From Natrarchaeobius chitinivorans (GTDB lineage Archaea > Halobacteriota > Halobacteria > Halobacteriales > Natrialbaceae), in assembly GCF_003841505.1 (NCBI RefSeq), contig NZ_REGA01000018.1, positions 1 through 64,000 on the forward strand: a stretch of DNA of 64,000 bases, in the 5' to 3' direction. The first letter of the stretch is position 1. Each line of letters opens with the position of its first letter. The translations under genes were made by a program, and so were the position numbers. The notes under the pieces are model-generated. The model saw nothing but the letters and a program-made list of their open reading frames with translations, made no database searches and had not been told where the DNA came from. Of this stretch, positions 3,023 to 24,647 are shown piece after piece.

Positions 3023-3046
3023 TGTTCGTGTCTCAAAGCCCAAGAC

Positions 3047-3053
3047 TATATTA
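3047..3053 (-). promoter_or_regulatory. TATA-like box for the GT4 gene
   Basis: TATATTA centred about 28 bases before the ATG at 3022, the spacing expected for a leaderless haloarchaeal transcript. It decides the start codon. Confidence 0.5.
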
Positions 3054-3134
3054 TTCACGTTCCATCTCGATCCCATAAGTGATCAGCAACCGAAAATCCC
3101 AACCTACTTGTGATCACTCTCAGAGTTGTGAAAT

Positions 3135-4052: not shown

Positions 4053-4062
4053 CTTAGAAGGG

Positions 4063-4866: not shown

Positions 4867-4992
4867 CGGGCTCTTGGCCGCACATTGACAGGGGCAGATT
4901 AAAATGCTACTGTTCGAAAGACCCACCCACACTGGATCGCCGTGCTGGGCCGGCCCCAGGTCACGGTCTCCGAGGTCGCGATACCCAGATAA

Positions 4993-6009: not shown

Positions 6010-6016
6010 GAGTCTC

Positions 6017-7258: not shown

Positions 7259-8217
7259 ACGTGTTGGTGATACCAATCGATATACTCCGTGAGCGATTCC
7301 TCGAGACTGATCTCTGGCGTCCACCCGAGACGTTCTTTGGCCTTCGTCGAATCGGGAATGCGCTTTTTCACGTCATGTTCGAACGACTCCTGGCGTTCGA
7401 CGGCGAACGGTTCCTCACGGTCACACCGTTCCCAGATCAGTTCCGCGAGCTCGAGCATCGAGATTGCCTCTGCGGAGCCGAGGTTGAAGTGGTCGTTCGT
7501 CGCCGCCTCGTCGTACGCACACTTGTATACGCCAGCAGCGATGTCCCTGACGTTGGTGAACGACCTGATCTGCTCGCCACTTCCGAGAATCTCCAACGGG
7601 TGCTGTTTCTCGTCGTTGATCTTCAGGACGAAATCAGGGATGACGTGTGCCTGGCCAACCTCCTCGCCTGGTGGCTCACGTGGCCCAACCGCGTTGAACG
7701 GGCGAAAGATACTGTACTCGACGTCGTGCTGGTCGTGATACGCTCTGCAGTAGTACTCACCAGCCAGTTTCTGGAAGCCGTACGCGCTATCTGGCGGAGG
7801 AATTTCCCCCAGTTGCTCTTCGGTAACGGGAAACTCCGTCGCGTTCTCGTACACCATCGAAGACGAGGCATAACAGACACGGTCCATGTCGTGTTCGACG
7901 GCTGCGTCCAACACGTTCCGATTCATCGCGTCGTTAATCGAGATGATGTCGGCTGGCACGTGGTGGAAGTATCCGATTCCGCCAATCTTCGCAGCCAAGT
8001 GAACCACGACGTCGATGTCGGATAACGCGTCGATCGCGGCAGTCCGATCACACAGGTCGACGTCACGAACGTCGACGTCGGAGAGAGAATCCGAGAGGTT
8101 CTCCTCGTGTCCACTACTGAAATCATCGATAACCACGATATCGCGACCCTGATCCACGAAGTAATCCACAATGTGAGATCCAAGGAAACCAGCACCACCA
8201 GTTACAGCTGTGGGCAT
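7255..8217 (-). CDS. NAD-dependent nucleotide-sugar epimerase
   Basis: 320-residue extended SDR. GGAGFLGS is at residues 7-14, ASSSMVYE gives the catalytic Ser region, and SAYGFQKLAGEYY holds the Tyr and Lys pair. It probably supplies the substrate or uses the product of the dehydrogenase gene it overlaps. The ATG at 8217 starts right at the Rossmann strand; the longer frame to 8280 adds an unrelated leader. Together with the GT4 gene ending at 8284 it forms a three-gene minus-strand unit. Confidence 0.88.
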   Translation of the reverse strand: MPTAVTGGAGFLGSHIVDYFVDQGRDIVVIDDFSSGHEENLSDSLSDVDVRDVDLCDRTAAIDALSDIDVVVHLAAKIGGIGYFHHVPADIISINDAMNRNVLDAAVEHDMDRVCYASSSMVYENATEFPVTEEQLGEIPPPDSAYGFQKLAGEYYCRAYHDQHDVEYSIFRPFNAVGPREPPGEEVGQAHVIPDFVLKINDEKQHPLEILGSGEQIRSFTNVRDIAAGVYKCAYDEAATNDHFNLGSAEAISMLELAELIWERCDREEPFAVERQESFEHDVKKRIPDSTKAKERLGWTPEISLEESLTEYIDWYHQHV

Positions 8218-8283
8218 CGTGCTGTCCACTCTGCTCGTAACTATTAGCAGTATCGTTCTCCCCCGAAGTGACAGTGACACCTC

Positions 8284-9363
8284 TCAGGTGAGTTCGCGGT
8301 ACAGCGAGACGTGTTTCTCACCGACCTTCGCGAACGAGTTGTCCTGGCGGAACGACTGCATCCCGTCGATCAGTCGGTCACGGGCCTGGTGCTCGGCCAG
8401 GATTTCTCGGATCCGGTCCTCAGCGTCTGACACGGTCTCGAACAACAGGAGACAGCCGTATTCCGACTGCAACCGCTCGAAATACGGTAATCGGGTCGCG
8501 ACAGTCGGTAACTCGTAGGCAGCACACCAGTTGAAGATCCCACTTTGCGCGACTTCGTCGTACGGAAGGACCGCGACGTCCGTTGCCTCGAACGCGAGGT
8601 GAAATCGGTCCTCGGCCAGATGCCCCGTGACAGTCACGTTCGCCGGTGCAGTCTCGGTGATCGACTCGAAGTAGGCGTCCGCTCCCCGGCTCCCGCCGGC
8701 CACGAGAAACTCGTACTCCGGAAAGCGCTCCGCGATCTCCAGGAACGTCTCGTACCCCTTCGACGGACGAACGTACCCCGGTTCCGTGACCACGATATCA
8801 CTCGGTTCGAACCCGAACGCCGCTTTCGCGTCCGCTTCCGTCACCCCCTCGACGGTGTCACCGACGCCGTGTGTGAAACAGTGGGCATCGGAAACCGACA
8901 CGCTCCGTTCGAACTTCTCCTGACAGTTGGCGGAGAGAAAGATCACCGACGTAGCAGTACCGGCGATGAGTTTGTTCGCGAGCCAAATATAGAGCCCCTT
9001 AGCTCGAGCCATCGGAGGGCTGACACGGTCGCTGTTCCACGCTTCGTGGACGGTGACGACGACCGGCGTTCGGTGAATCCGAGAGAGAACGAACAGGAGT
9101 GGATAAAACAGCCAGAGCAGGTACCACTTCGTCCCGAACAGTCCGTACTCGTGTTGAACGTGGATGATATCGTCGTCGGTCCGTCCCGCCCGGATAGCTG
9201 TCCTTGCGTACGAGAAAAACGAGACAGGAGGCGTGTCGTCCGTCTCCAGGATCACCGTCCGAACATCGACCGCGTCCTCGACTTCCTCGAGAAGTGATTT
9301 CGAATAGGTACCAATCCCACAGGAGCCATCCATCGGACTGGTAACCAGCGTCACGGACGTCAT
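8284..9363 (-). CDS. Glycosyltransferase family 4
   Basis: 359-residue GT-B glycosyltransferase starting MTSVTLVTSPMDGSCGIGTYS, where the glycine-rich GIGTYS loop follows the first beta strand. The C-terminal donor domain contains EPGYVRPSKGYETFLE and the VAVLPYDEVAQSGIFNWCAAYELPTVAT region typical of the family. It is first in a minus-strand unit with the epimerase and the sugar dehydrogenase. The region before it is strikingly AT-rich, with TATTAA near 9400 as a possible promoter. Confidence 0.85.
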   Translation of the reverse strand: MTSVTLVTSPMDGSCGIGTYSKSLLEEVEDAVDVRTVILETDDTPPVSFFSYARTAIRAGRTDDDIIHVQHEYGLFGTKWYLLWLFYPLLFVLSRIHRTPVVVTVHEAWNSDRVSPPMARAKGLYIWLANKLIAGTATSVIFLSANCQEKFERSVSVSDAHCFTHGVGDTVEGVTEADAKAAFGFEPSDIVVTEPGYVRPSKGYETFLEIAERFPEYEFLVAGGSRGADAYFESITETAPANVTVTGHLAEDRFHLAFEATDVAVLPYDEVAQSGIFNWCAAYELPTVATRLPYFERLQSEYGCLLLFETVSDAEDRIREILAEHQARDRLIDGMQSFRQDNSFAKVGEKHVSLYRELT

Positions 9364-9517
9364 TGGGTTCGTGCTCGAGTAGGGACCCACCCCGGTTAAT
9401 ACATTTGCTCAACTGTGACCAAACCCCAAATAATTAATATGTTTGGAAAATGAGATTTATGATATTTCTTTGACTTGGAAGCATTGGCATGAATAGGTTC
9501 TATAGATATTATAGAAT

Positions 9518-9553
9518 CCTTTCCTTTCTACACTCACTTTCAGGAAGGAAAGG
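9518..9553. repeat. Inverted repeat in AT-rich gap
   Basis: A perfect 9-base stem: CCTTTCCTT at 9518-9526 pairs with AAGGAAAGG at 9545-9553, with an 18-base loop. It lies in the AT-rich 9364-9642 interval between divergently transcribed genes. It could be an operator or a remnant of an insertion. Nothing else is recognised in the interval except the TATA box of the next gene. Confidence 0.4.
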
Positions 9554-9612
9554 TGTGGATGATGTGATAAGGTTCCAGATATATCAACCAGAATATGTGG
9601 ATTGCATCTGGT

Positions 9613-9620
9613 TTTAAATA
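9613..9620 (+). promoter_or_regulatory. TATA box for the methyltransferase gene
   Basis: TTTAAATA centred about 26 bases before the ATG at 9643. This spacing implies a leaderless transcript and selects 9643 over the in-frame ATG at 9595. Confidence 0.6.
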
Positions 9621-9642
9621 TACGGAATGGAACAGAGCGAGT

Positions 9643-10338
9643 ATGAGCAATCAGGGTAGCTTCAGCGGAAGGAATCCGATTGAATTGGTGACTCGTCTTA
9701 ATCAGCTATGGCGGGAAGGTGGCCTGCATGCTATACGACAGGGAGCGGAAGATTATCTCAGACACAATACAATCATATTGGACAGAAAATACGAGGATGT
9801 AAGAAGTGATACCGACTATCGGTGGGAGTTCATAAACAATCACATCAATGATAGCACAGAGCGGTTACTAGATATAGGATGTGCAGAAGGATATTTTTGT
9901 GCTCGCGCGGCCGGAAAGGGCATAAATGCAGTTGGAATAGACACAAACGAAAAACGAATTAAGCAAGCCAAGGCAGATCATCCAAACGTTGATTTCAGAG
10001 TCCAGACGTTGTCCCCGGACAATGTAACCGAGTTACCCGAATCGGATATTATTCTGTGTTTGACAGTCCATCACGGATTTGTGAATGGGTACGGTTGGGA
10101 CGAGTCGGTCGAAATGATGAAAACCATACTGGAAAAAGGTGATTTACTCGTATACGAAGGCTCCGGGATCAGACGCGATCATCCATCACTTGATGAGGAC
10201 TTAGAAACAATAGACTATTACCGAGAGCTGTTGTTCGATATTTATGAAGACGCCGAAATAATCGAGGAAACATACACTGAATACGGATCAGGTGAACGAA
10301 CAGACTCCATGTATATAGTTGACTGTTCCAATATATAG
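9643..10338 (+). CDS. Class I SAM-dependent methyltransferase
   Basis: 231-residue Rossmann-fold methyltransferase. Motif I is LLDIGCAEGYF (about residues 75-85), followed by the acidic end of strand 2 in VGIDTNEKR, and CLTVHHG replaces the usual motif IV. It probably methylates a sugar or glycan intermediate, judging by context. Base composition is much more AT-rich than the flanks and its codon use is correspondingly different, which suggests recent acquisition. The 3' end is followed by a fragment of a sulfatase-like gene. Confidence 0.8.
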   Translation: MSNQGSFSGRNPIELVTRLNQLWREGGLHAIRQGAEDYLRHNTIILDRKYEDVRSDTDYRWEFINNHINDSTERLLDIGCAEGYFCARAAGKGINAVGIDTNEKRIKQAKADHPNVDFRVQTLSPDNVTELPESDIILCLTVHHGFVNGYGWDESVEMMKTILEKGDLLVYEGSGIRRDHPSLDEDLETIDYYRELLFDIYEDAEIIEETYTEYGSGERTDSMYIVDCSNI

Positions 10339-10397
10339 TATTCAGCGTCCAACTACGTATGGCAAAAATGAAGCAGATATAGCTTTTTGTGGCTCAC

Positions 10398-10514
10398 CTC
10401 GAGGTTCCCTGGTACGTGATCGAAAAGTTACCCCGTCTGGAGATCCACGCGGACCCGCCGCTCGAGCAAGAGCGTGCCGACGAAGACGATATCACCAACA
10501 GCGCCCGGCGGTGA
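10398..10514 (+). pseudogene. 3' fragment of a sulfatase-like gene
   Basis: Bases 10398-10493 match 12292-12387, the 3' end of the intact sulfatase-like gene, at about 85 of 96 positions. The encoded LEVPWYVIEKLPRLEIHADP continues in frame to a TGA at 10512. Only the last 30 or so codons remain; the 5' part has been replaced by the AT-rich methyltransferase region. It marks an old duplication or recombination junction around the ParB-like gene that follows. Confidence 0.8.
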
Positions 10515-10563
10515 CGAAACCTATTTGACGGTTTGTCCTAACGCGCAATCACCCAGCCCGTTC

Positions 10564-11415
10564 ATGGACCAGCTGACACAGCAACTCCGAGAACTCGTGC
10601 GAAACGAGGGTGTGGCCACGGCGACGAAACGGGTACTCCACTACGGACTCGTCCGGACCCCGTTACAGCTACTCCCAGTAGATAGGTTGCCGCCGTGGGC
10701 TGTCCACTACGGGTATGCCGCTCGGTCCCTCGTCTCCCGACACAGCAGTGATGCCGATCCATTACGCCTCGTTCAGGTCGAGCCAACGGCGATCGAGTAC
10801 ACCCACACCACCGGCCACCCAACACCTCCAACTCGATTCGGTCGTGTCGTCGGCGGAGAGTGGGACAGGAACCGGGTTCCAACGGCCACACATTACGTCT
10901 ATCGGTCAGTGCGACGCCGGTACGAGACCGGTGTGAGTTGGGAGGAGACGGCACTATACGAGGAACACGTTCGCAGAATTTCCGACGGCGACCCACAGCG
11001 AGGACCGCAAACGATCGAAGAGTTAGAGAAAGAGTGTTCGGACCTGGACGACCTCCTGGCCACAATCGAAGCTGAGGGATACAAATCTCAACGCCAATTG
11101 CTCCAGGAACGCCCCACGGACACTCGAACGTCGAACAACGATACGTTTCATCCAGTGCTGAACGAAGTCGCTGTGAATATCGGCCGGAACGGGGAGTTGA
11201 TCAAACGTGGATCGGGGACACATCGCCTGGCAGTCGCACGGGCGCTCTCGCTCGAGGCAATCCCTGTCCTCGTTCGAACACGCCACGCCAACTGGCAGGC
11301 CATCCGAGACGAAATTCGAGCCGCCGGGACACCGACCGATCTGGGTCCCCAGACTCGACAATACCTGACCCATCCAGACCTCGCGGATATCATCCCGGAC
11401 CAGTGGATTCAATAG
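10564..11415 (+). CDS. ParB-like domain protein of glycosylation locus (copy 2)
   Basis: 283-residue paralog of the protein at 4063-4866. Shared blocks are VGGEWDRNR versus SGGKWDLVR, GVSWEETALYEEHV versus GVEWEQTSYYIHI, GYKSQRQLLQE versus GYQSQEQLDQA, and NEVAVNIGRNGELIKR...THRLAVARALSLEAIPVLVRTRHANWQ. The C-terminal RxGTHRLxxA pattern matches ParB-like folds. The start at 10564 excludes an unrelated leader that overlaps the sulfatase fragment. It directly precedes the sulfatase-like gene. Function unknown; the repeated presence in this locus suggests a role in surface glycan synthesis. Confidence 0.65.
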   Translation: MDQLTQQLRELVRNEGVATATKRVLHYGLVRTPLQLLPVDRLPPWAVHYGYAARSLVSRHSSDADPLRLVQVEPTAIEYTHTTGHPTPPTRFGRVVGGEWDRNRVPTATHYVYRSVRRRYETGVSWEETALYEEHVRRISDGDPQRGPQTIEELEKECSDLDDLLATIEAEGYKSQRQLLQERPTDTRTSNNDTFHPVLNEVAVNIGRNGELIKRGSGTHRLAVARALSLEAIPVLVRTRHANWQAIRDEIRAAGTPTDLGPQTRQYLTHPDLADIIPDQWIQ

Positions 11416-11475
11416 TCAGTGCTGGGACCTACTCCCAGCAACGAGTCGCTCTCGACCGACACAACTCAGTGACCC

Positions 11476-12420
11476 ATGTTTCACCATCTTCACCGTGCTA
11501 AAGAGGTCCTCGAGGAACGAGGCGCAGTCGACCTGGCGAAAACGAGTCTTAGGTACGCGCCGATCGAACTCAACAACATCATTTACAACCTGCGGAGCGA
11601 CGACCCCACCAACGTCATGGATGAAGAGTGGGACGTCCTGATCCTCCTCGATGCGTGCCGGTACGACATGTTTCCGGACTCGACCAGGTGGGACGGCGAA
11701 CTCGAGTCGCGGATTTCGCTGGGATCGACGAGCGAGGAATTCCTCCAGCGAAACTTCGCCGACGGGACGCACCACGATACGGTCTACGTGAACGCCAATC
11801 CACACCTCTGTCGACTCGGGTTCGACGCAGACGTCTTTCACGCGGTCATCGATTTACTGAGTGAGACGAAACCGATCTTTCCCGAGCTGGACTGTGACAT
11901 CGAGACGGTCCACCCGGAGACGGTCGTCGAAGCGACCCGTGAGGCAATCGAAACGTTCGAGAACAAGCGATTCATTATTCACTTTCTCCAGCCCCATCAC
12001 CCGTTCATAGGCGAAGCCGGGAGAGAACTCGCCGAAACCGGTCAGATCACCCACGACAAGGACATCTGGACGGCCCTCCGTGAGGGCGACATCACTGACC
12101 ACGAGCTAGTCTGGGAGGCGTACAGGGAGAACCTCGAGATCGTACTCTCCAGTCTCGAGCCACTCATCGACGAGCTCACCGGGAAGATCGTCCTCTCCTC
12201 CGATCACGGGAATCTGGTCGGTGAACGCCCAGGGCCGATCCCCGTTGGGCCGGCCTATGGCCACCCGTACGGTGTCTACTGTGACGAACTCCTCGAGGTG
12301 CCCTGGTACGTGATCGAGAAGTCACCCCGTCCGGAGATCCGCGCGGAACCGCCCCTCGAGCAGGAACGGGCCGACGAGGACGATATCGAGCAACGACTGG
12401 AGGCGCTTGGATACAAATAG
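11476..12420 (+). CDS. Sulfatase/alkaline-phosphatase-superfamily protein
   Basis: 314-residue protein of the alkaline-phosphatase-like superfamily, found in haloarchaeal glycan loci. Metal-binding candidates are D59 in VLILLDACRYD, the HFLQPHHPF block (about residue 166 on) and LSSDHGN (about 240). C61 sits where the nucleophile of this fold is expected, but the CxPxR sulfatase signature is absent, so true sulfatase activity is uncertain; phosphoryl or other transfer is possible. No signal peptide is seen. A broken copy of its 3' end lies at 10398-10514. Confidence 0.7.
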   Translation: MFHHLHRAKEVLEERGAVDLAKTSLRYAPIELNNIIYNLRSDDPTNVMDEEWDVLILLDACRYDMFPDSTRWDGELESRISLGSTSEEFLQRNFADGTHHDTVYVNANPHLCRLGFDADVFHAVIDLLSETKPIFPELDCDIETVHPETVVEATREAIETFENKRFIIHFLQPHHPFIGEAGRELAETGQITHDKDIWTALREGDITDHELVWEAYRENLEIVLSSLEPLIDELTGKIVLSSDHGNLVGERPGPIPVGPAYGHPYGVYCDELLEVPWYVIEKSPRPEIRAEPPLEQERADEDDIEQRLEALGYK

Positions 12421-13214: not shown

Positions 13215-13967
13215 CTACTGAAACGTTTCTAATTCCGACTGGACTTTCCGTACGGTATTCGATATATCCTCATTTTGAATCTTGATCACCTGCACTCCTT
13301 CTTCTCGAAGTATATCAGCAAGGGTTTCACAGATAGTGGAGATCTTCACTTGGGAATCACGGTGATTCGATACCCATTCCTTATCGACGGCAACACTGTT
13401 ACGGGTGGATTGTCTCTCGAGACAAACCTCGACGGGGGCGTCAATATAGAATACGAGGTCGGGAAGTGGAACTGTCGAGAGGAACTCACGAGAAAAGGTC
13501 TTCGAAAAGTCAATACCCGAGTACCACTGTAACGTGCTGAGAAGTTGAATAAATCCCCTATCGACACTCAACGTCTCGTTAGGAAACACATTTTCCCTCC
13601 CCAATTGGTAAAGGCCTGCTGTTTCGTACAACCGAACGAAGGCGCCGTCCGGTTCGTTTTCAGCATAATCGAGCCCCCTCGAAAATGTGTCTAGATAGTC
13701 AGGAAAGTCCTGAACGAACCGTTTGAAAGCGTGGTAGGTGAACCGGTGCATGACGATCTCGTCGCTGACGTATCTGCCGAACCGTCCAGGAAGTACACCG
13801 TACAGAAACGCTACCGGTTTTGGGGCATCAGCACGTATATGTCGTTGAGCCAGATGGTGTCGGCTACTGACGTCGTTGATGCTGAGTGTCCTCGGAAACT
13901 CACTTCGGTCGTGAACGGTGGTTTTGCCGGCCCCATACGGGCCCATAAATTCTACGTAAGCGTCCAT
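13215..13967 (-). CDS. P-loop kinase-like protein
   Basis: 250-residue protein with a Walker A motif GPYGAGKT at residues 9-16 and a later LVFYIDAPVEVCLERQ segment with RNS, the pattern of thymidylate-kinase-type small-molecule kinases. The substrate is unknown. Its ATG overlaps the TGA of the NTase gene by one base (TGATG), so the two are coupled. In other polysaccharide loci I recall NTase-like and thymidylate-kinase-like domains fused in one protein, so this pair may be the split form; that is inference. Confidence 0.65.
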   Translation of the reverse strand: MDAYVEFMGPYGAGKTTVHDRSEFPRTLSINDVSSRHHLAQRHIRADAPKPVAFLYGVLPGRFGRYVSDEIVMHRFTYHAFKRFVQDFPDYLDTFSRGLDYAENEPDGAFVRLYETAGLYQLGRENVFPNETLSVDRGFIQLLSTLQWYSGIDFSKTFSREFLSTVPLPDLVFYIDAPVEVCLERQSTRNSVAVDKEWVSNHRDSQVKISTICETLADILREEGVQVIKIQNEDISNTVRKVQSELETFQ

Positions 13968-14758
13968 CAGTAGTCCGAAAACGCCTCCAGTTCGCCTCGA
14001 ATCGACCCATACTTTCTCTCATCGATCAGCAGATACGCCGTCTCCCACGCGTCGAAGAACATCAATTTCAAAAGCCGATGCAGCTTTTCGTCCTGGGATT
14101 CGTTCGACAGCACGGTATCTCTGAGCTCATTCATTCGGTCCATATAATACGATGGCGGGCCGTCCTCGTTGTAGTAAAATACGGTTCGACCGACCAAGTG
14201 GGCCAGCTCGTCGGGCGGACTCGGTACGTAGAAGCCGTTGTGTTGTACTCTGTCTCGAAGCATCAGCCGATCAATTTCGGGGTCAACTCGGTATTTTCCC
14301 GAATGTAACGGCGACGAATAGCACATGTGATTCCAGACATCGAACCGCAGGGTTTCGTGTTTCGAACGTGAATCACCGTATGCGAACTTGGCTAATTTTA
14401 CCTTATTGTCAGGTTCGTCCAAGTTCTGATGTTTCCGTCGAATCAGCAGATGGTCGATCACAATTTTCGGCTCAGAGAGAACACGACGGACCGACTCTCG
14501 AGGATCCTCTAGTGCGACACTGAGTTGTTCACGGATAGGGGCTTTCCTGTTCGGATCGCCAGGTATCGCATCCTCCATCACGCCGAACACAGCGTCGAAA
14601 TCGTCTTCGTGGACGAAGATATCAATGTCATCACCCCAGACTCGTTCAGGGAGGTCGACGAACCCCCGCAAAATCACGTACGAAATATCGTCCTCAGAGA
14701 GGGAGTGGGCAACAGACTCCAACACGCTTTGTTCGTCCGGGCTTAGTTCATAATACAT
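13967..14758 (-). CDS. Nucleotidyltransferase-fold protein
   Basis: 263-residue protein with the core NTase metal motif WGDDIDIFV (residues 41-49), preceded by YVILRGF and followed by a third acidic region at KIVIDHLLIRRK. It is predicted to transfer a nucleotide to a small molecule or protein. The C-terminal half is helical and contains LMFFDAWETAYLLIDE. It is translationally coupled to the downstream P-loop kinase and lies three bases after the small gene at 14761. Substrate unknown. Confidence 0.6.
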   Translation of the reverse strand: MYYELSPDEQSVLESVAHSLSEDDISYVILRGFVDLPERVWGDDIDIFVHEDDFDAVFGVMEDAIPGDPNRKAPIREQLSVALEDPRESVRRVLSEPKIVIDHLLIRRKHQNLDEPDNKVKLAKFAYGDSRSKHETLRFDVWNHMCYSSPLHSGKYRVDPEIDRLMLRDRVQHNGFYVPSPPDELAHLVGRTVFYYNEDGPPSYYMDRMNELRDTVLSNESQDEKLHRLLKLMFFDAWETAYLLIDERKYGSIRGELEAFSDY

Positions 14759-14760
14759 GT

Positions 14761-14961
14761 TTAGAGATCTTTCATCTCCTTGAGAGAAGTTCCCGCCTCG
14801 ACGACGGCTTCTGCAAATTCTCGGTACTCTTCTTCCGTGAAGGTCAGTTGGAGTTCATCCATGTGCAGATCGACCCTCCCCTTTTCGTTTAGCTCGATCT
14901 GGACCTCAGTCGATTGATCCTCGAGTTCGAAGTCTGCAAGTAATCGTTCGACGATGCCCAT
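14761..14961 (-). CDS. Small acidic protein, 66 residues
   Basis: Small cytoplasmic-looking protein beginning MGIVERLLADFELEDQ. Its middle, KGRVDLHMDELQLTFTEEEYREFAEAVVEA, resembles the C-terminal half of the neighbouring 70-residue protein (RNVRLEMTIDDFLEFYENVEQT), so the two may be paralogs. The start at 14961 is chosen because it follows the upstream stop codon by one base (TGAGATG), indicating coupling. No known family is recognised. Confidence 0.6.
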   Translation of the reverse strand: MGIVERLLADFELEDQSTEVQIELNEKGRVDLHMDELQLTFTEEEYREFAEAVVEAGTSLKEMKDL

Positions 14962-14962
14962 C

Positions 14963-15175
14963 TCAGAGTTCACCCAGTGTTTGTTCGACGTTCTCGTAGA
15001 ACTCGAGAAAGTCGTCGATCGTCATTTCCAGTCGCACGTTTCGATGGTGGATATGGATAGCTTCGCCGACGTTGTCCTCAATCCTGAAAACTTTCGGGTT
15101 CCGACCAGGGACTGGGTCCAGCTCCCGTTCGGCAAGTGAAAGAACGAGAACGTTTTGACCGCTACGTTCATCCAT
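14963..15175 (-). CDS. Small protein, 70 residues
   Basis: Protein beginning MDERSGQNVLVLSLAERELD, with IHIHHRNVRLEMTIDDFLEFYENVEQTLGEL at its C terminus. First gene of a four-gene minus-strand unit with the 66-residue protein, the NTase and the P-loop kinase. No family is recognised. The divergent interval 15176-15300 contains a TATA-like ATAAATA at 15251-15257 for the phosphoesterase gene on the other strand. Confidence 0.6.
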   Translation of the reverse strand: MDERSGQNVLVLSLAERELDPVPGRNPKVFRIEDNVGEAIHIHHRNVRLEMTIDDFLEFYENVEQTLGEL

Positions 15176-15300
15176 ACTGGTTCCCCTGTAGCAAGAACCC
15201 ATCACTATTACGGTTCCCTAAATGACCGGCCAGAAAACGAATATGACCCCATAAATAGACCAGAGTTTACTATGGGTAAAACGAAACACAAGAACAGTTG

Positions 15301-16164
15301 ATGGATGAAATCGCCGTCATCTCAGATATTCATTTGAGAAGAGAACTGGAAGCGGAGATCGTTGCGGCGATAGAGGACTGTTTATCGTACATTGAACACC
15401 ACACCGATGTCAGTTACGTATTCGTTCTCGGCGACCTGATAACGCACAGTCGATCTGTCGAGGAAGACAAGCAGAGGTTCCGAACGCTCCGGGCAATCTT
15501 CGACAACTACCAAGTCTCACCTGTCTGGCTGCTCGGAAATCACGATGTGATGACTGTCAGCCGACCATCGATAGGTGATATTCTCGATCAGGAGAAGTTC
15601 TTCGGACAGATCACCATTGGATCTCGATCGATCCTCTATTTGGATACGAGCTGGCCAGAATCGCAGAGTCCGAACGGGTTTCTGGATAGGGGCCAGCTAG
15701 AGTGGGTGAAAGAAACAGTGGAAGAACGTAAGAACGTCGTGATTCTGCTCCATCACCCGGTCGGGTTCTTCAATTTGGACAACAATCCATGGTTTCGTCA
15801 CTATCCAGAGAGAGCATATCTCGCGAATCGGAAAGAGCTCCACGAAATACTCACTCGAAACAACACCACGTTCCTGACGATAAGTGGCCACATACACGCT
15901 ACGCAACTCTCTGAGTCGCCTACAATGCCACACATATCCATCAATGCATTCAGTAACGAACGGCCATCGAAACCATTGACAGGAGAGTTCGCAATAGTCC
16001 GATTCGACGAGGGCGTATCGATCGAAATCAGGAACGAGAAACGAGTTCTCAGAACGTATCACGTCGACGAAAAGCAGGTACGCTCTCAGACGAATGCATT
16101 GGGTCGCTGGCTATCACTCCTTCGAAAATCGAAGTACACTCGGAGAGTCTTCGGACCGAGATGA
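15301..16164 (+). CDS. Calcineurin-like metallophosphoesterase
   Basis: 287-residue metallophosphoesterase with all metal motifs: D9-x-H11 in ISDIH, GDL near residue 45, GNHD at about 79-82, HHP near 150, and GHIH near 200. It should hydrolyse a phosphate mono- or diester. In this context it may release a phosphate from a CDP-alditol pathway intermediate (inference). The ATG at 15301 overlaps the TGA of a nine-codon upstream frame starting at 15272. No signal peptide, so cytoplasmic. Confidence 0.85.
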   Translation: MDEIAVISDIHLRRELEAEIVAAIEDCLSYIEHHTDVSYVFVLGDLITHSRSVEEDKQRFRTLRAIFDNYQVSPVWLLGNHDVMTVSRPSIGDILDQEKFFGQITIGSRSILYLDTSWPESQSPNGFLDRGQLEWVKETVEERKNVVILLHHPVGFFNLDNNPWFRHYPERAYLANRKELHEILTRNNTTFLTISGHIHATQLSESPTMPHISINAFSNERPSKPLTGEFAIVRFDEGVSIEIRNEKRVLRTYHVDEKQVRSQTNALGRWLSLLRKSKYTRRVFGPR

Positions 16165-16287
16165 TCGAACGAGCCACGCTTCGAGTGAGGACGGTACCGG
16201 ATACGCCCCCCATACCCGTCTCACATTCGATAGGTCCTCTGGCCAGGTGAACAACAAGGTTTTTCTCCCGAATCAGTCACTACCCGC

Positions 16288-17046
16288 ATGATGGATACGG
16301 TCATTATGGCAGCGGGGAAAGGGGAGCGATTGGGGCCCCGCGAAGAAACTCTTCCGAAATTGTTTGTCGAAGTCGGAAATAAGACCATATTTGAACACCA
16401 ACTCGAGGCGCTTTCCCCACTACAATCAACTTTGATCGACTCCGTCGTAACGGTCGTACTCGGATACGGGTTCGTAGATTCGCCAGACGCCGAACACAAA
16501 CTCAGCGAGTACGTTCACATCGATCAGCGGTTCGAGTACAACATCGTATATCTCGAGAACTGGAAAGAAGTCGAGAACTCGAAATCAGCCCTCGCTGGCG
16601 TCGAGTCGGTAGATGGAGACGACCATGTGTTGCTACTTTGTGGCGACGTCATCGTATCACCTGGTCAAATGGAGGAGTTCATCCAGACATTTTACGAAGA
16701 GTGTTCGGACTCAGCGTACAGTGCTGTGGGGGCGTTCGAAGGATATCAAAGCGAGATGACAGCCATCAGATGGGATACGAACGATGTAGTAACCGATTAC
16801 GGAGCGATCGAAGGTCACCAGGAAGCAGGCATGTTCATCCTTCACAGAGAACACGTACAGACAGCGAAAGACCGGTGGGAAAGATCTGGTGGAGAAGAAT
16901 GGTTTCCAGTCGTGTTTCCGGAAGTTCCCTCGAAGGCAATTCGGTTGGACCCGGGTGAGCACATCGAAATCAACACCCAGGAGCATCTAACGGAGGGGGA
17001 AGAGATCCTTCCGTTCGAAGGAAAGAACACAGGCCATACTCGATGA
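16288..17046 (+). CDS. LicC-like sugar/alditol-phosphate nucleotidyltransferase
   Basis: 252-residue NTP transferase. The N-terminal AAGKGERLGPREETLPKLF binds the nucleotide, VLLLCGDVIV holds the metal-binding Asp, and the NWKEVENSKSAL region corresponds to the block that precedes GDV in phosphocholine or alditol-phosphate cytidylyltransferases. It probably makes a CDP-activated donor, but a hexose-1-phosphate substrate is not excluded. The first of two adjacent ATGs is preferred since a weak TATA-like GGTTTTT lies 26 bases upstream. The next gene downstream resembles CDP-glycerol-using transferases. Confidence 0.72.
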   Translation: MMDTVIMAAGKGERLGPREETLPKLFVEVGNKTIFEHQLEALSPLQSTLIDSVVTVVLGYGFVDSPDAEHKLSEYVHIDQRFEYNIVYLENWKEVENSKSALAGVESVDGDDHVLLLCGDVIVSPGQMEEFIQTFYEECSDSAYSAVGAFEGYQSEMTAIRWDTNDVVTDYGAIEGHQEAGMFILHREHVQTAKDRWERSGGEEWFPVVFPEVPSKAIRLDPGEHIEINTQEHLTEGEEILPFEGKNTGHTR

Positions 17047-17159
17047 ACTGAGAAAATTATCGCCCGCAACGGTAGTAGTTTGCGTGACAGTGTAACGGGA
17101 TGTACAGTTCAGATGCCATCCAAAAAAGTTAACAATTAGTGTAAAAGTGGTAGAGCAAG

Positions 17160-18290
17160 ATGGAATCTGGCATATCTTTCTCCTCGGACCCAACCATAAC
17201 TTTCTTCTCAAATGGACCTGTTCGAAAAGAAGCGCTGGACCCGATAGTAGCAGAGGCGGAGAGACGAGGATACGACACAGTGTTCGAAGAAGACCTATCA
17301 GCTGAAGCAGAGGTAGGAATCTATAACGAGCACACATACCGGATACAGGAAGTCAATGCAGCGCTGTCTGTGATTGGATTTCATAGTATCGATTGTCCCT
17401 ACAAAGGAGACCACTGGATCGGTGAGCCATGGGATCAGTTCGATATTGGGTTCGTTCCCGGCGCTGCAACTGGTGAGAAGTGGGTGAGAAATTCTTGGTA
17501 TCCGAAGGCAAGACCGGATATAGGTCTGTTCGAGGTCGGCTGGCCGAAATCCGACGACGTGTTTTCAGACTCGTTTCAGCAACGATTGGAAGCGATCCGG
17601 ACGGAATATCGGGTTCCTGAGGGAAGTTCAGTCATGTTTACACCCTCGTATCCATCGACTGAAAAACTGCGCGAGTTTTTATCGGCAACTGAAAAGTACG
17701 ACAACAGGCTGGTAAAGCTCCACCCGAGTCACAATAACAGAGAGATTGCCCAAGGGGTGAAAACTGATGACGTTATTTTCCTTGACGAAAATAAAAAGAT
17801 AATGGAATGTCTGTCGATAGCAGATGTCTCTGTCTCCGATGAGTCCAGTGTGATTCAGGAGTCGATACTAACAGGAACGATCCCAGTGTCCGTAACCGAT
17901 TGGATGATCGGATCGAATAGAGACAAAAAGCCGAGTGCACGGATGCCGGGTTTTGCAATTCAGACACCCCGGAGTAACCTCGGAAGTACGTTGAGTTCAT
18001 TGGTTGACGACCTCGAGGCCCACCGCGAACAGCTCCTCGAACAACGAGACCACCATTTCGCGAACGTCGGCTCGAGTGCAGCGGTAGCGATGGACGTCAT
18101 CGAAGCAGTGATACACGACGACCCACTCCCAGTTGCACCTCTCGAGCCGGAGTATTCCCTTCCAGCACACATCTACGGAATTGCGAGAGCAAACGTGGTG
18201 GACCACACGCCGGAGGCACTCAAAGATGTACTTCGCCGCTCCGGCACCGAACGAGTGTTACAGTACATTGACGATCGATCCATCAGGTGA
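17160..18290 (+). CDS. CDP-glycerol glycerophosphotransferase-like protein
   Basis: 376-residue GT-B-like protein. The C-terminal half has KLHPSHNNREI...VIFLDENKKIMECLSIADVSVSDESSVIQESILTGTIPV, the arrangement of TagB/TagF-type teichoic acid polymerases (His, then ADxxxSDxSSxxxE). It could transfer an alditol phosphate onto a glycan. The N-terminal half is short and divergent. It follows the cytidylyltransferase-like gene by 113 bases. UDP-GlcNAc epimerase-like or other GT-B enzymes are alternatives. Confidence 0.6.
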   Translation: MESGISFSSDPTITFFSNGPVRKEALDPIVAEAERRGYDTVFEEDLSAEAEVGIYNEHTYRIQEVNAALSVIGFHSIDCPYKGDHWIGEPWDQFDIGFVPGAATGEKWVRNSWYPKARPDIGLFEVGWPKSDDVFSDSFQQRLEAIRTEYRVPEGSSVMFTPSYPSTEKLREFLSATEKYDNRLVKLHPSHNNREIAQGVKTDDVIFLDENKKIMECLSIADVSVSDESSVIQESILTGTIPVSVTDWMIGSNRDKKPSARMPGFAIQTPRSNLGSTLSSLVDDLEAHREQLLEQRDHHFANVGSSAAVAMDVIEAVIHDDPLPVAPLEPEYSLPAHIYGIARANVVDHTPEALKDVLRRSGTERVLQYIDDRSIR

Positions 18291-18329
18291 ACTCACGAAC
18301 CGAAGGCAGTGAGGTGATTCGATCCCCGG

Positions 18330-18946
18330 TCAGGTGGCTATCTCTTGCCGTTTGATAGTCGGGATCGACGCGGTGGGATCCGTTTGATAATGTGAGTGGC
18401 GGATACGAATCTTTGCAGGGATGCGTTCGAGGTCAAAAACTTTCGCAATCGATAGGCGGTGGGCCCCATCGCGGCGGATTAACTCGCCATCTCTCCCGAC
18501 ATGGACCTCGATCGGGTACGATAGGTCGTAGCCGTTGTGTCTGATATCCTCGACAGGTCGTCGTATTTGGACAGTTCAGTAGTCTCACGTGTGGAGTGAT
18601 CCTGTCGGTGGTTGTGGTATGTCGTCTCTCCCCATGGACTACCCTTCGAAAAATGCGATACGAAGCTCTGGTGAACGAAATGTGGATCGAATCTAGATTT
18701 TAGCTGATCCCACTCGCCACCGAGGACGCGATATCGAGGAACCTCTCCAAAATTATCACTGATGTCAGATAAACTGATTGAGTGGTTTATATTTTCGGGG
18801 TTGGCCTCAATGATCTCGGCAGGCCTCGGTGCGGACGCACCGTATTTCAGCCGATAATAGATGTACCGGAGAGCATAGGACGTCGTCGTCGATAGGGTTG
18901 TAACCGGCCACTTCTGCTCAAATTGGTACCGGAGGCCGAAAATTAA
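18330..18946 (-). pseudogene. ParB-like domain protein (copy 3), frameshifted
   Basis: Translation of the minus strand gives a third ParB-like paralog. The upper part reads VPRYRVLGGEWDQLKSRFD...SPWGETTYHNHRQ and breaks near 18555-18565. The frame then shifts to EDIRHNGYDLSYPIEVHVGRDG, then ELIRRDGAHRLSIAKVFDLE, IPAKIRIRHSHYQ and a stop at 18330. No start codon is visible upstream of the open region and the C terminus is shorter than in the other copies, so it is decayed rather than simply misread. It fills most of the 18291-19085 interval. Confidence 0.7.
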
Positions 18947-19048
18947 TCACTCAGCGTTCACATCGTTTTTATCGTTCGAACAAGAATAATGGTTACGATC
19001 AGACGGTGCGTCGAAAGACTCCACCGATTCGTGGCCGAACCCAGACCA

Positions 19049-19056
19049 TTTTATAC
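19049..19056 (+). promoter_or_regulatory. TATA box for the flippase gene
   Basis: TTTTATAC centred about 34 bases before the ATG at 19086, giving a predicted transcription start near 19079. An ATG at 19065 would be upstream of that start, so 19086 is chosen. Confidence 0.5.
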
Positions 19057-19085
19057 TTCCTCTGATGAGGAACGCCACGAACAGT

Positions 19086-20537
19086 ATGCGCCTTGGTCAA
19101 ACGTCGTTTATTCTATTCCTCTCGAAAATATTCGGATCATTTCTCGGGTTCGTCGCGACGATCTACTTCGCCAGAGTACTCGGTGAAGAGGTCCTCGGAC
19201 AATACGCACTCGTCTTGACGATCGTAGCATGGGTGGGAATCGTTTCTTCGGTAGGGTTCTCGGGAGCAATCGAAAAACGAATTAGCGAAGGCGACGAACC
19301 CGACCGCTATCTCGGGGCCGGGATCGTCATTACGGGAGGAATACTGATCCTGGCAACCGTATTTGTCCTCCTGTTTCGGAGTCAGATCAATGCGTACGTT
19401 GGTGTGCCAGTTGCGGAGTTCGTCCTCTTGCTGCTGTTCGCGAGCAAGCTCAAGGCTCTGGTGAACGCTTCTCTGAAAGGGACTCATCTCGTCCACGTCT
19501 ACGCGGTACTCTGGAGTGGGAAACTTCTCACGAGGGCGACCGCCCAGATTGCACTGGTCGCAATCGGGTTCGGACTCACGGGCATGCTCTATGGATACGC
19601 AATCGCCTCACTCGTGACCGCGACTGTCGGCATCTGGGTGCTGGGGTTGCGTCCGGCACGGCCGACGACGAAACACGTCCGGAGCCTGTTCGATTACGCG
19701 AAATACAACTGGCTGGGCGGAATGCAGGGAAAGACGTTCGATTCGGTCGACATCGCAGTGCTCGGGTTTTTCGTTACGCAAGGATTGGTTGGGATCTACT
19801 CCGTCGCGTGGTCTCTCGGAAAGTTTCTCGACGTCTTCGGACGGTCGATCAGCAGTACCCTCTTCCCGGAGATGAGTGAGCTATCCAGCGCAAACGACAT
19901 GAAGGCCGTGGCTACACTCACCGAAGATGCGCTCAGTTATGGTGGACTCATCCTCATCCCTGGATTGGTCGGCTCACTCGTCATCGGAGACCGCTTGCTC
20001 GCCATTTACGGTGATGGGTTCGTCGCCGGTACGGAAGTGCTGGTAATCCTTATCGCCGCGTTGTTGATCTATACGTACAACAAGCAACTACTCAATACGT
20101 TGAACGCAATCGATCGACCCAATCTGGCGTTCAAAGCGAACGGAGTGTTCATCGTCTCGAACATCTCCCTCAATGTCGTACTCGTGTGGCAGATAGGATG
20201 GGTCGGGGCAGCGATTGCGACGGCCGCTTCCGCGGCTGTCAGTTTATGTCTGGCATTCCGGTACTCGAAGAGGGTAGTACCGTTCGAGATCCCCGTTCGG
20301 GAATGTAGCTACCAGTGGATCGCAGCGCTTCTAATGGGGGCTGTCGTGGAATTGAGCCGAGAATTTGGAGAGCGAAACTGGGGATGGGTTCAGGACTACA
20401 ACGTTGTTTTCGTCGTGATGCTCGTCACGATCGGTGCGGGAATCTACTTTGCCACGTATTTTGCTGTCTCCCAATCGTTCAGAACCACAGTTACGAACAA
20501 TCTACCGATAGAGGTACCGCTGGTTAGCGAGCGATAA
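19086..20537 (+). CDS. Wzx/AglR-like polysaccharide flippase
   Basis: 483-residue integral membrane protein with about 12-14 hydrophobic segments, beginning MRLGQTSFILFLSKIFGSFLGFVATIYFARVLGEEVLGQYAL. This is the N-terminal signature of the oligosaccharide flippase (MATE/MVF-like) superfamily. It probably moves dolichol-linked glycan across the membrane before transfer by AglB. It lies on the side of the locus next to aglG and aglB. GC content rises sharply after its end. Confidence 0.85.
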   Translation: MRLGQTSFILFLSKIFGSFLGFVATIYFARVLGEEVLGQYALVLTIVAWVGIVSSVGFSGAIEKRISEGDEPDRYLGAGIVITGGILILATVFVLLFRSQINAYVGVPVAEFVLLLLFASKLKALVNASLKGTHLVHVYAVLWSGKLLTRATAQIALVAIGFGLTGMLYGYAIASLVTATVGIWVLGLRPARPTTKHVRSLFDYAKYNWLGGMQGKTFDSVDIAVLGFFVTQGLVGIYSVAWSLGKFLDVFGRSISSTLFPEMSELSSANDMKAVATLTEDALSYGGLILIPGLVGSLVIGDRLLAIYGDGFVAGTEVLVILIAALLIYTYNKQLLNTLNAIDRPNLAFKANGVFIVSNISLNVVLVWQIGWVGAAIATAASAAVSLCLAFRYSKRVVPFEIPVRECSYQWIAALLMGAVVELSREFGERNWGWVQDYNVVFVVMLVTIGAGIYFATYFAVSQSFRTTVTNNLPIEVPLVSER

Positions 20538-21677: not shown

Positions 21678-24647
21678 ATGAGTACGGACACCGAGCGTGT
21701 CGAGGGAGAGACGGAGTCGTCGCTGTCTCTCCTCGAGACGTGGAATCAGTGGTATCACATCCCGATCGTCGGGGTCGTGATGCTGTTTATGTTCTCGATT
21801 CGGATTCAGGCGTACGACCGGTTCGTCACCGAGGACGGAACGCCCGCCCTGGCCGCGATCGACTCCTGGTATCACTGGCGGACGGTTCAGTGGACGGCGG
21901 AGAACTACCCGCGGACGATGCCGTACGACGTCTGGACTAGCTTCCCGTCCGGCCGATACGTCGGTCAGTTCGGCACGCTTTTCGACCAGATTATCGTCAC
22001 GGTGGCGATGATCGTCGGCCTCGGCGATCCGTCGACGGAACTCCTCTATACGATCGCGTTACTCTCGGTGCCCGCGATGGCCGCTCTCGTCGCGATCCCC
22101 GTGTTTCTGATCGGTCGCCGCCTCGGGGGGACGGTCGGCGGGATCGTCTCCGTCATCCTCCTCGCGCTCGCGCCCGGGACGTTCCTCGCACGAACGACCG
22201 TCGGCCAGCTCCAACACCACGTCGCCGAAGTGCTGTTCATGGCGATCGCCGTCCTCGCCTTCATGGTCGCGCTCCGCGTGGCCGAACGGGAGCAGCCGAT
22301 CTACGAACTCGTCGTCGACAAGGACTGGGACGCCCTCCGAACGCCGACCATCTACAGCGCGCTGGCCGGCATCGCACTCTCGCTGTACATCTGGGTGTGG
22401 CCGCCGGGCGTCGTCCTGATCGGCATTCTCGCGGTGTTTTTCACCGTCCAGCTCTGTCTCGACTACGTTCGAAACGTCTCGCCCGACCACGTCGCGTTCG
22501 TCGGAGCGGTGAGCCTGGGGCTCACGGCGGTGATTACGGCGCTGCTCATCGAAGAACCCGGCACGAGCGTCACGAGTTTCGGCTACCTCCAGCCGGCAAG
22601 CGCCGCGCTGGTCGCGCTCGGCTGCGTCTTCATGGCCTGGTTCGCCCGTCAGTGGAACGCCTACGACGTCGAACGGGTGTACTACCCCGCAGCCATCGCG
22701 GGCCTGATCGTGGCCGGATCCGCCGTGGTGTGGCTGGCCCTTCCCAGCGTCTTCGATACGTTTGCGGGCAATGCGATGCGCCGCGTCGTTCCCTTCGGCC
22801 AGACCGCGACGGACCTCACCATCCAGGAGGCCCAGCCGCCCGGAAACTTCAGCGAACACGTCTTCGCCGAGTTCGGGGCCGCGTTCTACACGATGCTCGC
22901 CGGCCTCGCCGTCCTGATCGCGCGTCCGTTCCTGGGTCGGGAGTTCCGGACCGAACAAACGCTGATCGTCGTCTGGTCGCTGTTCCTGATCAGCATGGCC
23001 GCGACCCAGATCCGCTTTGCGTACTACCTTGTCGTCGCCGTCGCCGTCGTCAACGCGGTGTTCATCGCGGCGACCCTCGAGTTGCTCGACTTCGATATCG
23101 ACTACCTGCGAAGCGTCGAGGCGATAAAAAGCGTCGAAGCCTACCAGGTCATCGTCATCGTGATGGTCGTCCTGTTGCTGTTCGCGCCGTTGCTCCCGCC
23201 CGTCGCGGCCGACACGGACACGGCGTGGAACCAGAGCGCGAACACGGGTCCGAACCCGACCGCCCAGACGTGGGAGCCGTCGAACCACTGGCTCAACGAG
23301 AACACGCCCGAACCGGGCAACTGGGGCGGTGCGGACCGCGCCGACGAACTCGAGTTGTACGGCACCTACGAGTATCCGGAGGACGGTAATTACGACTATC
23401 CCGAGGGAGCCTACGGCGTGATGTCGTGGTGGGACTACGGCCACCTGATAACGGTACAGGGCGAGCGGATCCCCCACTCGAACCCGTTCCAGTCCGGCGC
23501 AAGATCGTCGTCGGCGTTCCTGACCGCCGAATCCGAGGAGCGATCCGAACTGATCCTCGACGCCATCGCCGCGGGCGAGTCGCCGAGCGATCACTCGAAC
23601 GAGCAACTCGAGTCGATGATCGCGGACGCCGACGAGTCGGACGAGGAGATCCGGTACGTGATGGTCGACGACCAGATGGCCGGCAACAAGTTCCCAGCGA
23701 TCGCGACGTGGACCGGGCCGGAGTACAACTACTACACGACGCCGGAGGACCTGAGTCCGAACGAGCCGGTCGAACGCGACGAAATCGGCGAGACGTTCGC
23801 CGACGTTCCGTACTACAACACGACGGTGGCCAACCTGTACTTCGGCGACGCCATCGGTATGGAACACTACCGGCTGGTTCACGAGAACGACGAGCGGATG
23901 ACGACGTTCGTCAGTTACGCGGTCGTCGATGCAGAAACCGGCGAACTGCAGTACAACGCAGACGGAAATCCGATGGTGTCCGTCAATCAGATCCTCGATC
24001 AGCGGACGTACATACAGATGATACAGATACAGCAACATCCGGATTTCGACATCGAGGAATTCGACAGACGACAACACACTCCCGTCAAAACGTACGAACG
24101 CGTCGAAGGCGCGACGATCGAGGGATCGGTCGACGTCGAGAATACTGAGGACGCGACCGTAACCGCCGCAGTCGAGCTCGATACGGGAGGCGAACGCGGA
24201 ACCTTCGACTACGTCCAGCAGGGCGAACTCGAGGACGACGGCTCCTTCGAGTTGACGGTTCCGTACGCGACCAACGACGAACTCGGCGTCGAGGACGGGT
24301 ATACGAACAGCGCCGTCGAAGCGACCGAAGAGTACAGGGTGACGGTGACCGCACCGACCGATGACGGGTTCGACGCGTACGACGGAGAGGTCGACGTTCC
24401 GGAGACCGCGGTCGTCGACGGCGAAACCGTCGAGGTCACGCTCGAGGAACTCGAGTTCGACGATGCAGAGGAGATCGAAGACGAGACCGACGTCGACCCC
24501 GAAGACGACTCTGACGTCGACGACGTCGACGGCAACGAGAGCGACGGTACGGACGACGGAGCCGAAGACGTGATCGACGACGAGGCTACGGACGACGGCG
24601 ACACCGCCGGATCGTTCACGCCGGTTGCCGCCGACGTGGCCGGGTAA
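21678..24647 (+). CDS. aglB: Oligosaccharyltransferase AglB
   Basis: 989-residue STT3-family enzyme that transfers the lipid-linked glycan to Asn of N-x-S/T sequons on the outer face of the membrane. The N-terminal half has about 13 membrane helices. The DSWYH motif is in the first external loop, and the catalytic-domain signature WWDYG is W584-G588. Later parts are a soluble beta-rich domain and an acidic tail rich in Asp, Glu and Thr, ending VAADVAG. The length matches haloarchaeal AglB. It is divergent from aglG and marks the end of the glycosylation locus. Confidence 0.96.
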   Translation: MSTDTERVEGETESSLSLLETWNQWYHIPIVGVVMLFMFSIRIQAYDRFVTEDGTPALAAIDSWYHWRTVQWTAENYPRTMPYDVWTSFPSGRYVGQFGTLFDQIIVTVAMIVGLGDPSTELLYTIALLSVPAMAALVAIPVFLIGRRLGGTVGGIVSVILLALAPGTFLARTTVGQLQHHVAEVLFMAIAVLAFMVALRVAEREQPIYELVVDKDWDALRTPTIYSALAGIALSLYIWVWPPGVVLIGILAVFFTVQLCLDYVRNVSPDHVAFVGAVSLGLTAVITALLIEEPGTSVTSFGYLQPASAALVALGCVFMAWFARQWNAYDVERVYYPAAIAGLIVAGSAVVWLALPSVFDTFAGNAMRRVVPFGQTATDLTIQEAQPPGNFSEHVFAEFGAAFYTMLAGLAVLIARPFLGREFRTEQTLIVVWSLFLISMAATQIRFAYYLVVAVAVVNAVFIAATLELLDFDIDYLRSVEAIKSVEAYQVIVIVMVVLLLFAPLLPPVAADTDTAWNQSANTGPNPTAQTWEPSNHWLNENTPEPGNWGGADRADELELYGTYEYPEDGNYDYPEGAYGVMSWWDYGHLITVQGERIPHSNPFQSGARSSSAFLTAESEERSELILDAIAAGESPSDHSNEQLESMIADADESDEEIRYVMVDDQMAGNKFPAIATWTGPEYNYYTTPEDLSPNEPVERDEIGETFADVPYYNTTVANLYFGDAIGMEHYRLVHENDERMTTFVSYAVVDAETGELQYNADGNPMVSVNQILDQRTYIQMIQIQQHPDFDIEEFDRRQHTPVKTYERVEGATIEGSVDVENTEDATVTAAVELDTGGERGTFDYVQQGELEDDGSFELTVPYATNDELGVEDGYTNSAVEATEEYRVTVTAPTDDGFDAYDGEVDVPETAVVDGETVEVTLEELEFDDAEEIEDETDVDPEDDSDVDDVDGNESDGTDDGAEDVIDDEATDDGDTAGSFTPVAADVAG

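Follow-up and report, generated by a model that had tools for sequence, protein, structure and literature searches.

The window analysed here comprises the first 64 kb of the 95.7-kb contig C18 (NZ_REGA01000018.1) in the 4.57-Mb draft genome of the haloarchaeon Natrarchaeobius chitinivorans. It contains a glycan locus spanning approximately 1.9–24.6 kb, and within this locus lies a module of three co-directional genes on the forward strand. These encode a calcineurin-like metallophosphoesterase (15301..16164), a cytidylyltransferase (16288..17046) and a divergent PF04464 (TagF-like) protein of 376 amino acids (17160..18290), which are named below by their first coordinate. Four further open reading frames run on the reverse strand (13215–13967, 13967–14758, 14761–14961/14973 and 14963–15175), and all seven lie where an earlier note on this DNA had placed them. 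That note had joined them in one pathway that would make, activate and polymerise an alditol phosphate. The gene calling was binned by guanine plus cytosine (GC) content, so that also the low-GC genes of the locus were covered.

Features of the cytidylyltransferase and the transferase

The 16288 protein is a candidate cytidylyltransferase of the GT-A NTP transferase type, similar to LicC and inositol-1-phosphate cytidylyltransferase (IPCT), and is proposed to form cytidine diphosphate (CDP)-X from cytidine triphosphate (CTP) and X-phosphate. In Pfam it matches NTP_transf_3 with 43.9 bits and NTP_transferase with 36.4 bits. A PDB search with the single sequence resulted in LicC (1jyk) as best relative, which is less decisive than the result of the family profile. 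This profile, built from 20 homologues, has LicC (3e-20), PntC (8e-20) and IPCT (1e-15) at the top, and the five best matches are all CTP-dependent phospho-alcohol or phosphonate cytidylyltransferases or near relatives of these. The signature motif ends with P23-K24, and these residues as well as D120 and E227, the metal-site aspartate and glutamate, are invariant in the 20 homologues. Fold family, signature and metal-site residues are shared with LicC and IPCT (1jyk, 2xme), whereas 16288 differs in having approximately 250 amino acids and no fused domain, and in carrying EIN where some relatives have EID. The earlier description of the protein as LicC-like agrees with these matches, and the predicted specificity of 16288 is that of a cytidylyltransferase-type enzyme nearer to the CTP:phospho-alcohol than to the sugar-1-phosphate enzymes.

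For 17160, which had been described as CDP-glycerol glycerophosphotransferase-like, the profile search suggested at that time gives a match to Glyphos_transf (PF04464) with 31.2 bits at a cut-off of 22.1, covering residues 123–232. When 17160 and its two orthologues were compared by hhalign with a profile built from 20 full-length PF04464 proteins of haloarchaea, the alignment extended over 275 columns (E = 5e-7); this full-length profile matches TagF from Staphylococcus (3l7i) at 3.6e-51. H75 falls on the column of the WHG histidine and H188 on that of the second conserved histidine, corresponding to H444 and H584 of TagF, and both are invariant across 17160 and its orthologues. The TagF-like capsule enzyme Bcs3 has strictly conserved histidines at the corresponding positions, H96 and H233, and their replacement by alanine abolishes or drastically reduces its activity (PMC10299916). 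Moreover, 17160 contains the motifs SDESS (226–230) and GWPKSD (127–132), which correspond to the ITDYSS- and GYPRND-type motifs, supporting its designation as a putative CDP-X:acceptor phosphotransferase.

GT-B families have features in common. The 17160 protein also matches the glycosyltransferase family NF046086 at 22.9 bits (cut-off 200), and the best NCBIfam matches of 16288 are sugar nucleotidyltransferases (NTases), all below threshold. This might suggest that the likeness of 17160 to PF04464 is due to chance, the protein being an ordinary GT-B glycosyltransferase, and that 16288 is an ordinary sugar-1-phosphate nucleotidylyltransferase. We regard this as very improbable, as the curated PF04464 cut-off is passed with both TagF histidines aligned, and as the NTase family, whose profile favours CTP:phospho-alcohol enzymes, is linked to a PF04464-type gene in every one of the 20 neighbourhoods described in the next section.

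Orthologues of 17160 were found in two of 391 other genomes (G211 and G045), with 33–34% identity. A search of genome contigs for relatives resulted in the G211 genome only, with none on plasmids and none on viral contigs, and PDB searches with 17160 or its small family gave no relative. The NTases nearest to 16288 are those paired with full-length TagF (50–52% identity), yet the partner of 16288 is divergent and has orthologues in these two genomes only, suggesting that the transferase was acquired by exchange for another.

Conservation of the gene pair in haloarchaea

When 195 genomes of the order were searched with 16288, 21 places outside the window reached E ≤ 2e-29, followed by a drop to E of approximately 1e-9. 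Neighbourhoods of 20 kb, picked by the NTase alone, were taken for 20 of these places; the 21st (G204:C1) was left out, and its coordinates adjoin a PF04464 match. A PF04464-type gene is encoded at most two genes from the NTase in all 20 neighbourhoods, belonging to the TagF-like cluster in seven and to a shorter subfamily, c6, in 13. Most of these genes also score as PF04464; the one in G162 does not and was assigned to c6 by clustering alone. Conversely, loci picked by a full-length PF04464 protein contain an NTase of the same cluster in 17 of 20 cases, in 16 of them at most two genes away. Both the PF04464 match and the co-occurrence in other genomes, on which the earlier note had made its proposal depend, were thereby found, including the neighbourhood conservation it had asked for. 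The annotation in RefSeq contains a TagF-NTase pair in Halorussus aquaticus and, independently of the present analysis, a triad of PF04464, NTase and glycerophosphodiesterase (GDPD, PF03009) genes in Haladaptatus halobius. The GDPD is the third recurrent partner, present in 13 of 16 c6 loci and in several TagF loci.

Polyol phosphates joined by phosphodiester bonds characterise bacterial teichoic acids and some capsules. The earlier note regarded phosphate-linked surface polymers as not established in haloarchaea. Contrary to the impression given there, PF04464 is common in this group, being present in 103 of 392 haloarchaeal genomes, 72 of which reach 100 bits or more by our own count, and some of the genes are already named in RefSeq. 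The literature search, whose coverage left out most subscription journals, resulted in no functional paper on haloarchaeal PF04464 genes and in none on a teichoic-acid-like polymer in this group. With the conserved pair of activating enzyme and transferase and its frequent GDPD partners, the question becomes open to direct tests in culturable strains, e.g., of the sequenced Haladaptatus and Halorussus species. The pair also provides a functional frame for the RefSeq label 'CDP-glycerol glycerophosphotransferase family protein' in haloarchaea, and the limits of the safe use of this label become visible.

As a side observation, a cytidylyltransferase of approximately 500 amino acids is encoded in the loci L080, L087, L092, L096, L102, L106, L108, L114 and L117, in operons with TagF and GDPD genes outside obvious glycan loci; in L080 this protein is a fusion that combines an NTase with a HAD-IIA phosphatase. 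Glycerol kinase and GlpABC genes, which had been considered as neighbours of some loci, were ruled out, the neighbours being SNF transporters and acyl-CoA carboxylase subunits.

The proposed pathway and the nature of the transferred group

That 16288 and 17160 form a functional pair, combining CTP-dependent activation of a phospho-alcohol with phosphotransfer by a TagF-family enzyme, i.e., CDP-activated phospho-group transfer, is well supported. We slightly favour the more specific reading that the two enzymes belong to a surface-glycan locus of the AglB type and decorate its product in two steps with a phosphate-linked group. In this pathway, 16288 would convert CTP and a small phosphorylated alcohol (X-P) to CDP-X, and 17160 would transfer X-P from CDP-X to a hydroxyl group of the glycan, still lipid-linked on the inner side of the membrane, under release of cytidine monophosphate, with H75 possibly acting as base and H188 holding the pyrophosphate. 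The Wzx/MurJ-type polysaccharide flippase encoded at 19065..20537 on the forward strand (Polysacc_synt, 68.5 bits) might then flip the glycan, and the oligosaccharyltransferase AglB (21678..24647, forward strand; AglB_core-like 71 bits, STT3 63 bits, AglB_L1 55 bits) might attach it to surface layer (S-layer) or other proteins. A phosphate-linked decoration could account for extra negative charge, phosphate storage or virus receptors at the surface of haloarchaea.

Trimming or recycling of phosphodiesters would be the task of the metallophosphoesterase 15301, as the phosphodiesterase or phosphatase of the module; the same is proposed for the GDPD of related loci, whose place it occupies. Its naming as a phosphoesterase is borne out by a Metallophos match of 50.5 bits; the best NCBIfam match is a cyclic-nucleotide phosphodiesterase, below threshold. 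A distant homologue adjoins TagF in one case (L079). A PDB search for a relationship to the GpdQ-type glycerophosphodiesterases gave no match at 0.001 and the other homologues are mostly unlinked to PF04464, and therefore we only infer a role as glycerophosphodiesterase-like enzyme. Two further homologues are present in the same genome, each with one in-frame stop (G000:C8:163351–164121 and G000:C20:35046–35846).

Glycerol or another alditol is the most likely identity of X, leading but unproven, because related genes in haloarchaea resemble TagF/TarF and in many cases have a GDPD as partner. More tentatively, and with less than even confidence, it may be proposed that many haloarchaea, about a quarter of the genomes sampled, make CDP-activated polyol phosphates that are phosphodiester-linked to surface or N-linked glycans, representing an archaeal counterpart of teichoic acids of which the window would be a divergent, AglB-linked branch.

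Several observations weigh against the decoration pathway as outlined. The single-sequence PF04464 match of 17160 spans 110 residues only, and its AlphaFold model, computed from a two-sequence input, is unusable at a predicted local distance difference test (pLDDT) value of 41.5. The residue three positions after the first histidine is proline (P447 in TagF) in glycerol-phosphate enzymes and glycine in ribitol-phosphate enzymes (PMC10299916). By our own reading, of the 32 haloarchaeal proteins whose WHG motif can be read, 22 have the glycerol-type proline, whereas 17160 and both orthologues have an aspartate (Asp78), and therefore the enzyme class is supported and the donor is not. Neither of the two orthologues adjoins an NTase, and both genomes that encode them carry a phosphoramidate-like cassette. 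As to the partners, 15301 homologues are mostly unlinked to PF04464 as stated above, a GDPD or HAD phosphatase is absent from the module, PF03009 being matched just once in the genome and on another contig, and a TagD-type gene is absent from the module interval, all three PF01467 matches of the genome being on other contigs as well.

A strict teichoic-acid-like explanation would have CDP-glycerol or CDP-ribitol as the activated donor, from which 17160 polymerises a poly(alditol phosphate) chain on the cell surface. With TagB, TagF, TarF and TarL of wall teichoic acid synthesis 17160 shares the PF04464 membership, the two histidines, the GYPRND- and TDYSS-type motifs and the proposed CTP-activated donor, and both the GDPD partners of related loci and the glycerol-pocket proline in most haloarchaeal TagF-like proteins fit a teichoic-acid-like system. 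However, 17160 is very divergent from these enzymes and has Asp, neither Pro nor Gly, after its WHG-type motif; the window pairs a LicC-like NTase instead of TagD with the transferase, and the archaeal context of AglB and Wzx indicates a decorated glycan rather than a free polymer. The transferase of 376 amino acids stands alone, with no TagA/TagB/TagGH-type set in the scanned part of the locus; for a TagGH-type exporter, no ABC gene was found among the scanned locus proteins, the rest of the window lying outside that scan. A strict teichoic-acid pathway is for these reasons judged unlikely. What stands of the earlier proposal is the pair for activation and transfer; the alditol is called into question by Asp78, and the polymer by the fact that a lone, short transferase might attach no more than one group. 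A likeness in context is found in TagF-like capsule polymerases (Cps3D, Bcs3/CroT), where a PF04464 enzyme acts in a heteroglycan and not in a wall-teichoic locus, although 17160 lacks the fused glycosyltransferase or phosphatase domain. The haloarchaeal PF04464-NTase-GDPD operons, such as the one on the Haladaptatus halobius plasmid NZ_CP085337.1, share the two-enzyme core of adjacent, co-directional genes; they differ in having a GDPD where the window has a metallophosphoesterase, and their transferase belongs to subfamily c6. Unlike in the window locus, an alkaline-phosphatase-like or Wzx gene was not seen in the c6 loci scored.

Alternatively, the group might be no alditol but a different phospho-group activated by CDP, e.g., phosphoramidate, phosphocholine/ethanolamine or a phosphonate, with 17160 representing a PF04464 branch of that specificity. 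Cassettes resembling Cj1418-Cj1417-Cj1416 of the Campylobacter O-methyl phosphoramidate pathway (Cj1415-Cj1418) were identified in six genomes (G001, G020, G045, G059, G172 and G211), in every case in or near glycan loci with PF04464 genes (L095:10217–14843; L091:15954–19750; L121:4585–8941; L168:16401–19923; L147:18132–19574 with L169:574–3687; L170:14768–19432). They are contiguous, except for the partly sequenced L091, and encode a phosphoenolpyruvate-synthase-like protein (Cj1418), a GATase (Cj1417) and a LicC-like NTase (Cj1416). Cj1418 is presumably a member of the NF004508 family, for which the two cassettes tested score 908 and 869 bits (cut-off 501), and NF045546 is matched with 71–129 bits (cut-off 250). 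The kinase of the L121 cassette bears an N-terminal CTP_transf_like domain (PF01467).

G211 and G045, the only genomes with 17160 orthologues, carry the cassette 12 and 29 kb away; it is present in only five of the 195 genomes searched. Moreover, LicC and PntC are the best matches of the NTase profile, the alditol pocket is altered by Asp78, and a kinase similar to 13215 occurs in the cassette regions of G172 and G045. The window itself shares with the Campylobacter pathway a LicC-like cytidylyltransferase and a P-loop kinase, whereas the glutamine kinase and the CDP-glutamine hydrolase were not found in its genome: there is no NF045546 (hydrolase) match at 1e-15, and the best NF004508 match has 50 bits at the cut-off of 501. 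Phosphoramidate is therefore unlikely as the group in this genome. In addition, the window NTase is nearest to the NTases paired with full-length TagF and not to those of the cassettes. The transferase branch of 17160 may handle a non-alditol donor, but for the module as a whole this explanation is considered rather doubtful.

The glycan locus and the opposite-strand operon

The AglB gene is located 3.4 kb downstream of the module, and therefore the locus is most likely a protein N-glycosylation (agl) cluster, a point absent from the earlier note. It further encodes GT4 glycosyltransferases, epimerases, a UDP-glucose/GDP-mannose-type dehydrogenase, methyltransferases and one GT2 enzyme. An alkaline-phosphatase/sulfatase-superfamily protein (11476..12420, forward strand), possibly an accessory hydrolase or transferase, is recurrent in TagF glycan loci; its own Pfam match is a weak one to PglZ, its homologues match PF00884 (Sulfatase) below cut-off, and such homologues, with 30–42% identity, are present in 11 of the 42 first comparison loci. 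The GC content rises from 50.2% for the module through 55.0% for the remaining glycan locus (1859–12420) to 63.8% beyond 25 kb, with 63.5% in the AglB gene. Because the rest of the locus is GC-poor as well, the low GC is no mark of the small transferred unit suggested earlier; it is a property of the whole glycan locus, of which the module is the lowest part.

The operon on the reverse strand starts with two tiny genes, of 70 amino acids (14963..15175) and 66–70 amino acids (14761..14961/14973). Neither matches a family, and they are related, the second being paralogue-like, since both match the same protein in the comparison locus L103 (L103|10408). They are followed by an MNT-fold-like nucleotidyltransferase distantly related to PF14907 (13967..14758) and by a P-loop nucleoside/thymidylate-kinase-like protein (13215..13967). 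The NTase and P-loop kinase pair of the earlier note is thus present as reading frames, whereas its family assignment is less firm: 13967 scores 19.3 bits for NTP_transf_5, below the cut-off of 31.2, and 13215 is a marginal Thymidylate_kin match (27.1 at 27.0).

It is an evenly balanced question whether this operon is an independent system, e.g., toxin-antitoxin-like or regulatory, so that two unrelated cassettes lie side by side. The two tiny genes and the MNT gene form a conserved cassette: in L102 (G145) and L103 (G129), homologues of both tiny genes immediately precede that of the MNT gene, in the same order and on the same strand. The cassette is self-contained there and the kinase lies outside it. 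The strand opposite to that of the module also speaks for independence. MNT homologues are found in three of 145 other genomes. The 13215 homologues are rare and occur in haloarchaeal glycan loci, three times beside a ParB-like gene (L149–L151). Against independence, the L102 cassette is located 3.2 kb from a TagF-GDPD-NTase operon, PF04464 is present in four of the four genomes with the MNT protein, albeit a small number, and one 13215 homologue lies in L170, where a TagF gene and a Cj1418-like cassette occur together. The assignment of 13215–15175 to the same pathway as the module is not supported.

Examination of the gap at 18.3–19.1 kb for a missing module gene resulted in nothing but a decayed ParB-like copy, which lies with in-frame stops on the minus strand at approximately 18384–18904 of this 775-bp interval (18291–19064). 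Two intact relatives are encoded at 4063–4932 and 10474–11415. This ParB-like family has no Pfam match and, by our own reading, a GxHR-type motif; it is also present in the glycan loci L004, L102, L104, L107, L118 and L148–L151. Finally, a seemingly intact DDE_3 transposase gene is located at the left contig end (43–1149), and its homologues also flank or interrupt the related glycan loci L035, L082 and L168.

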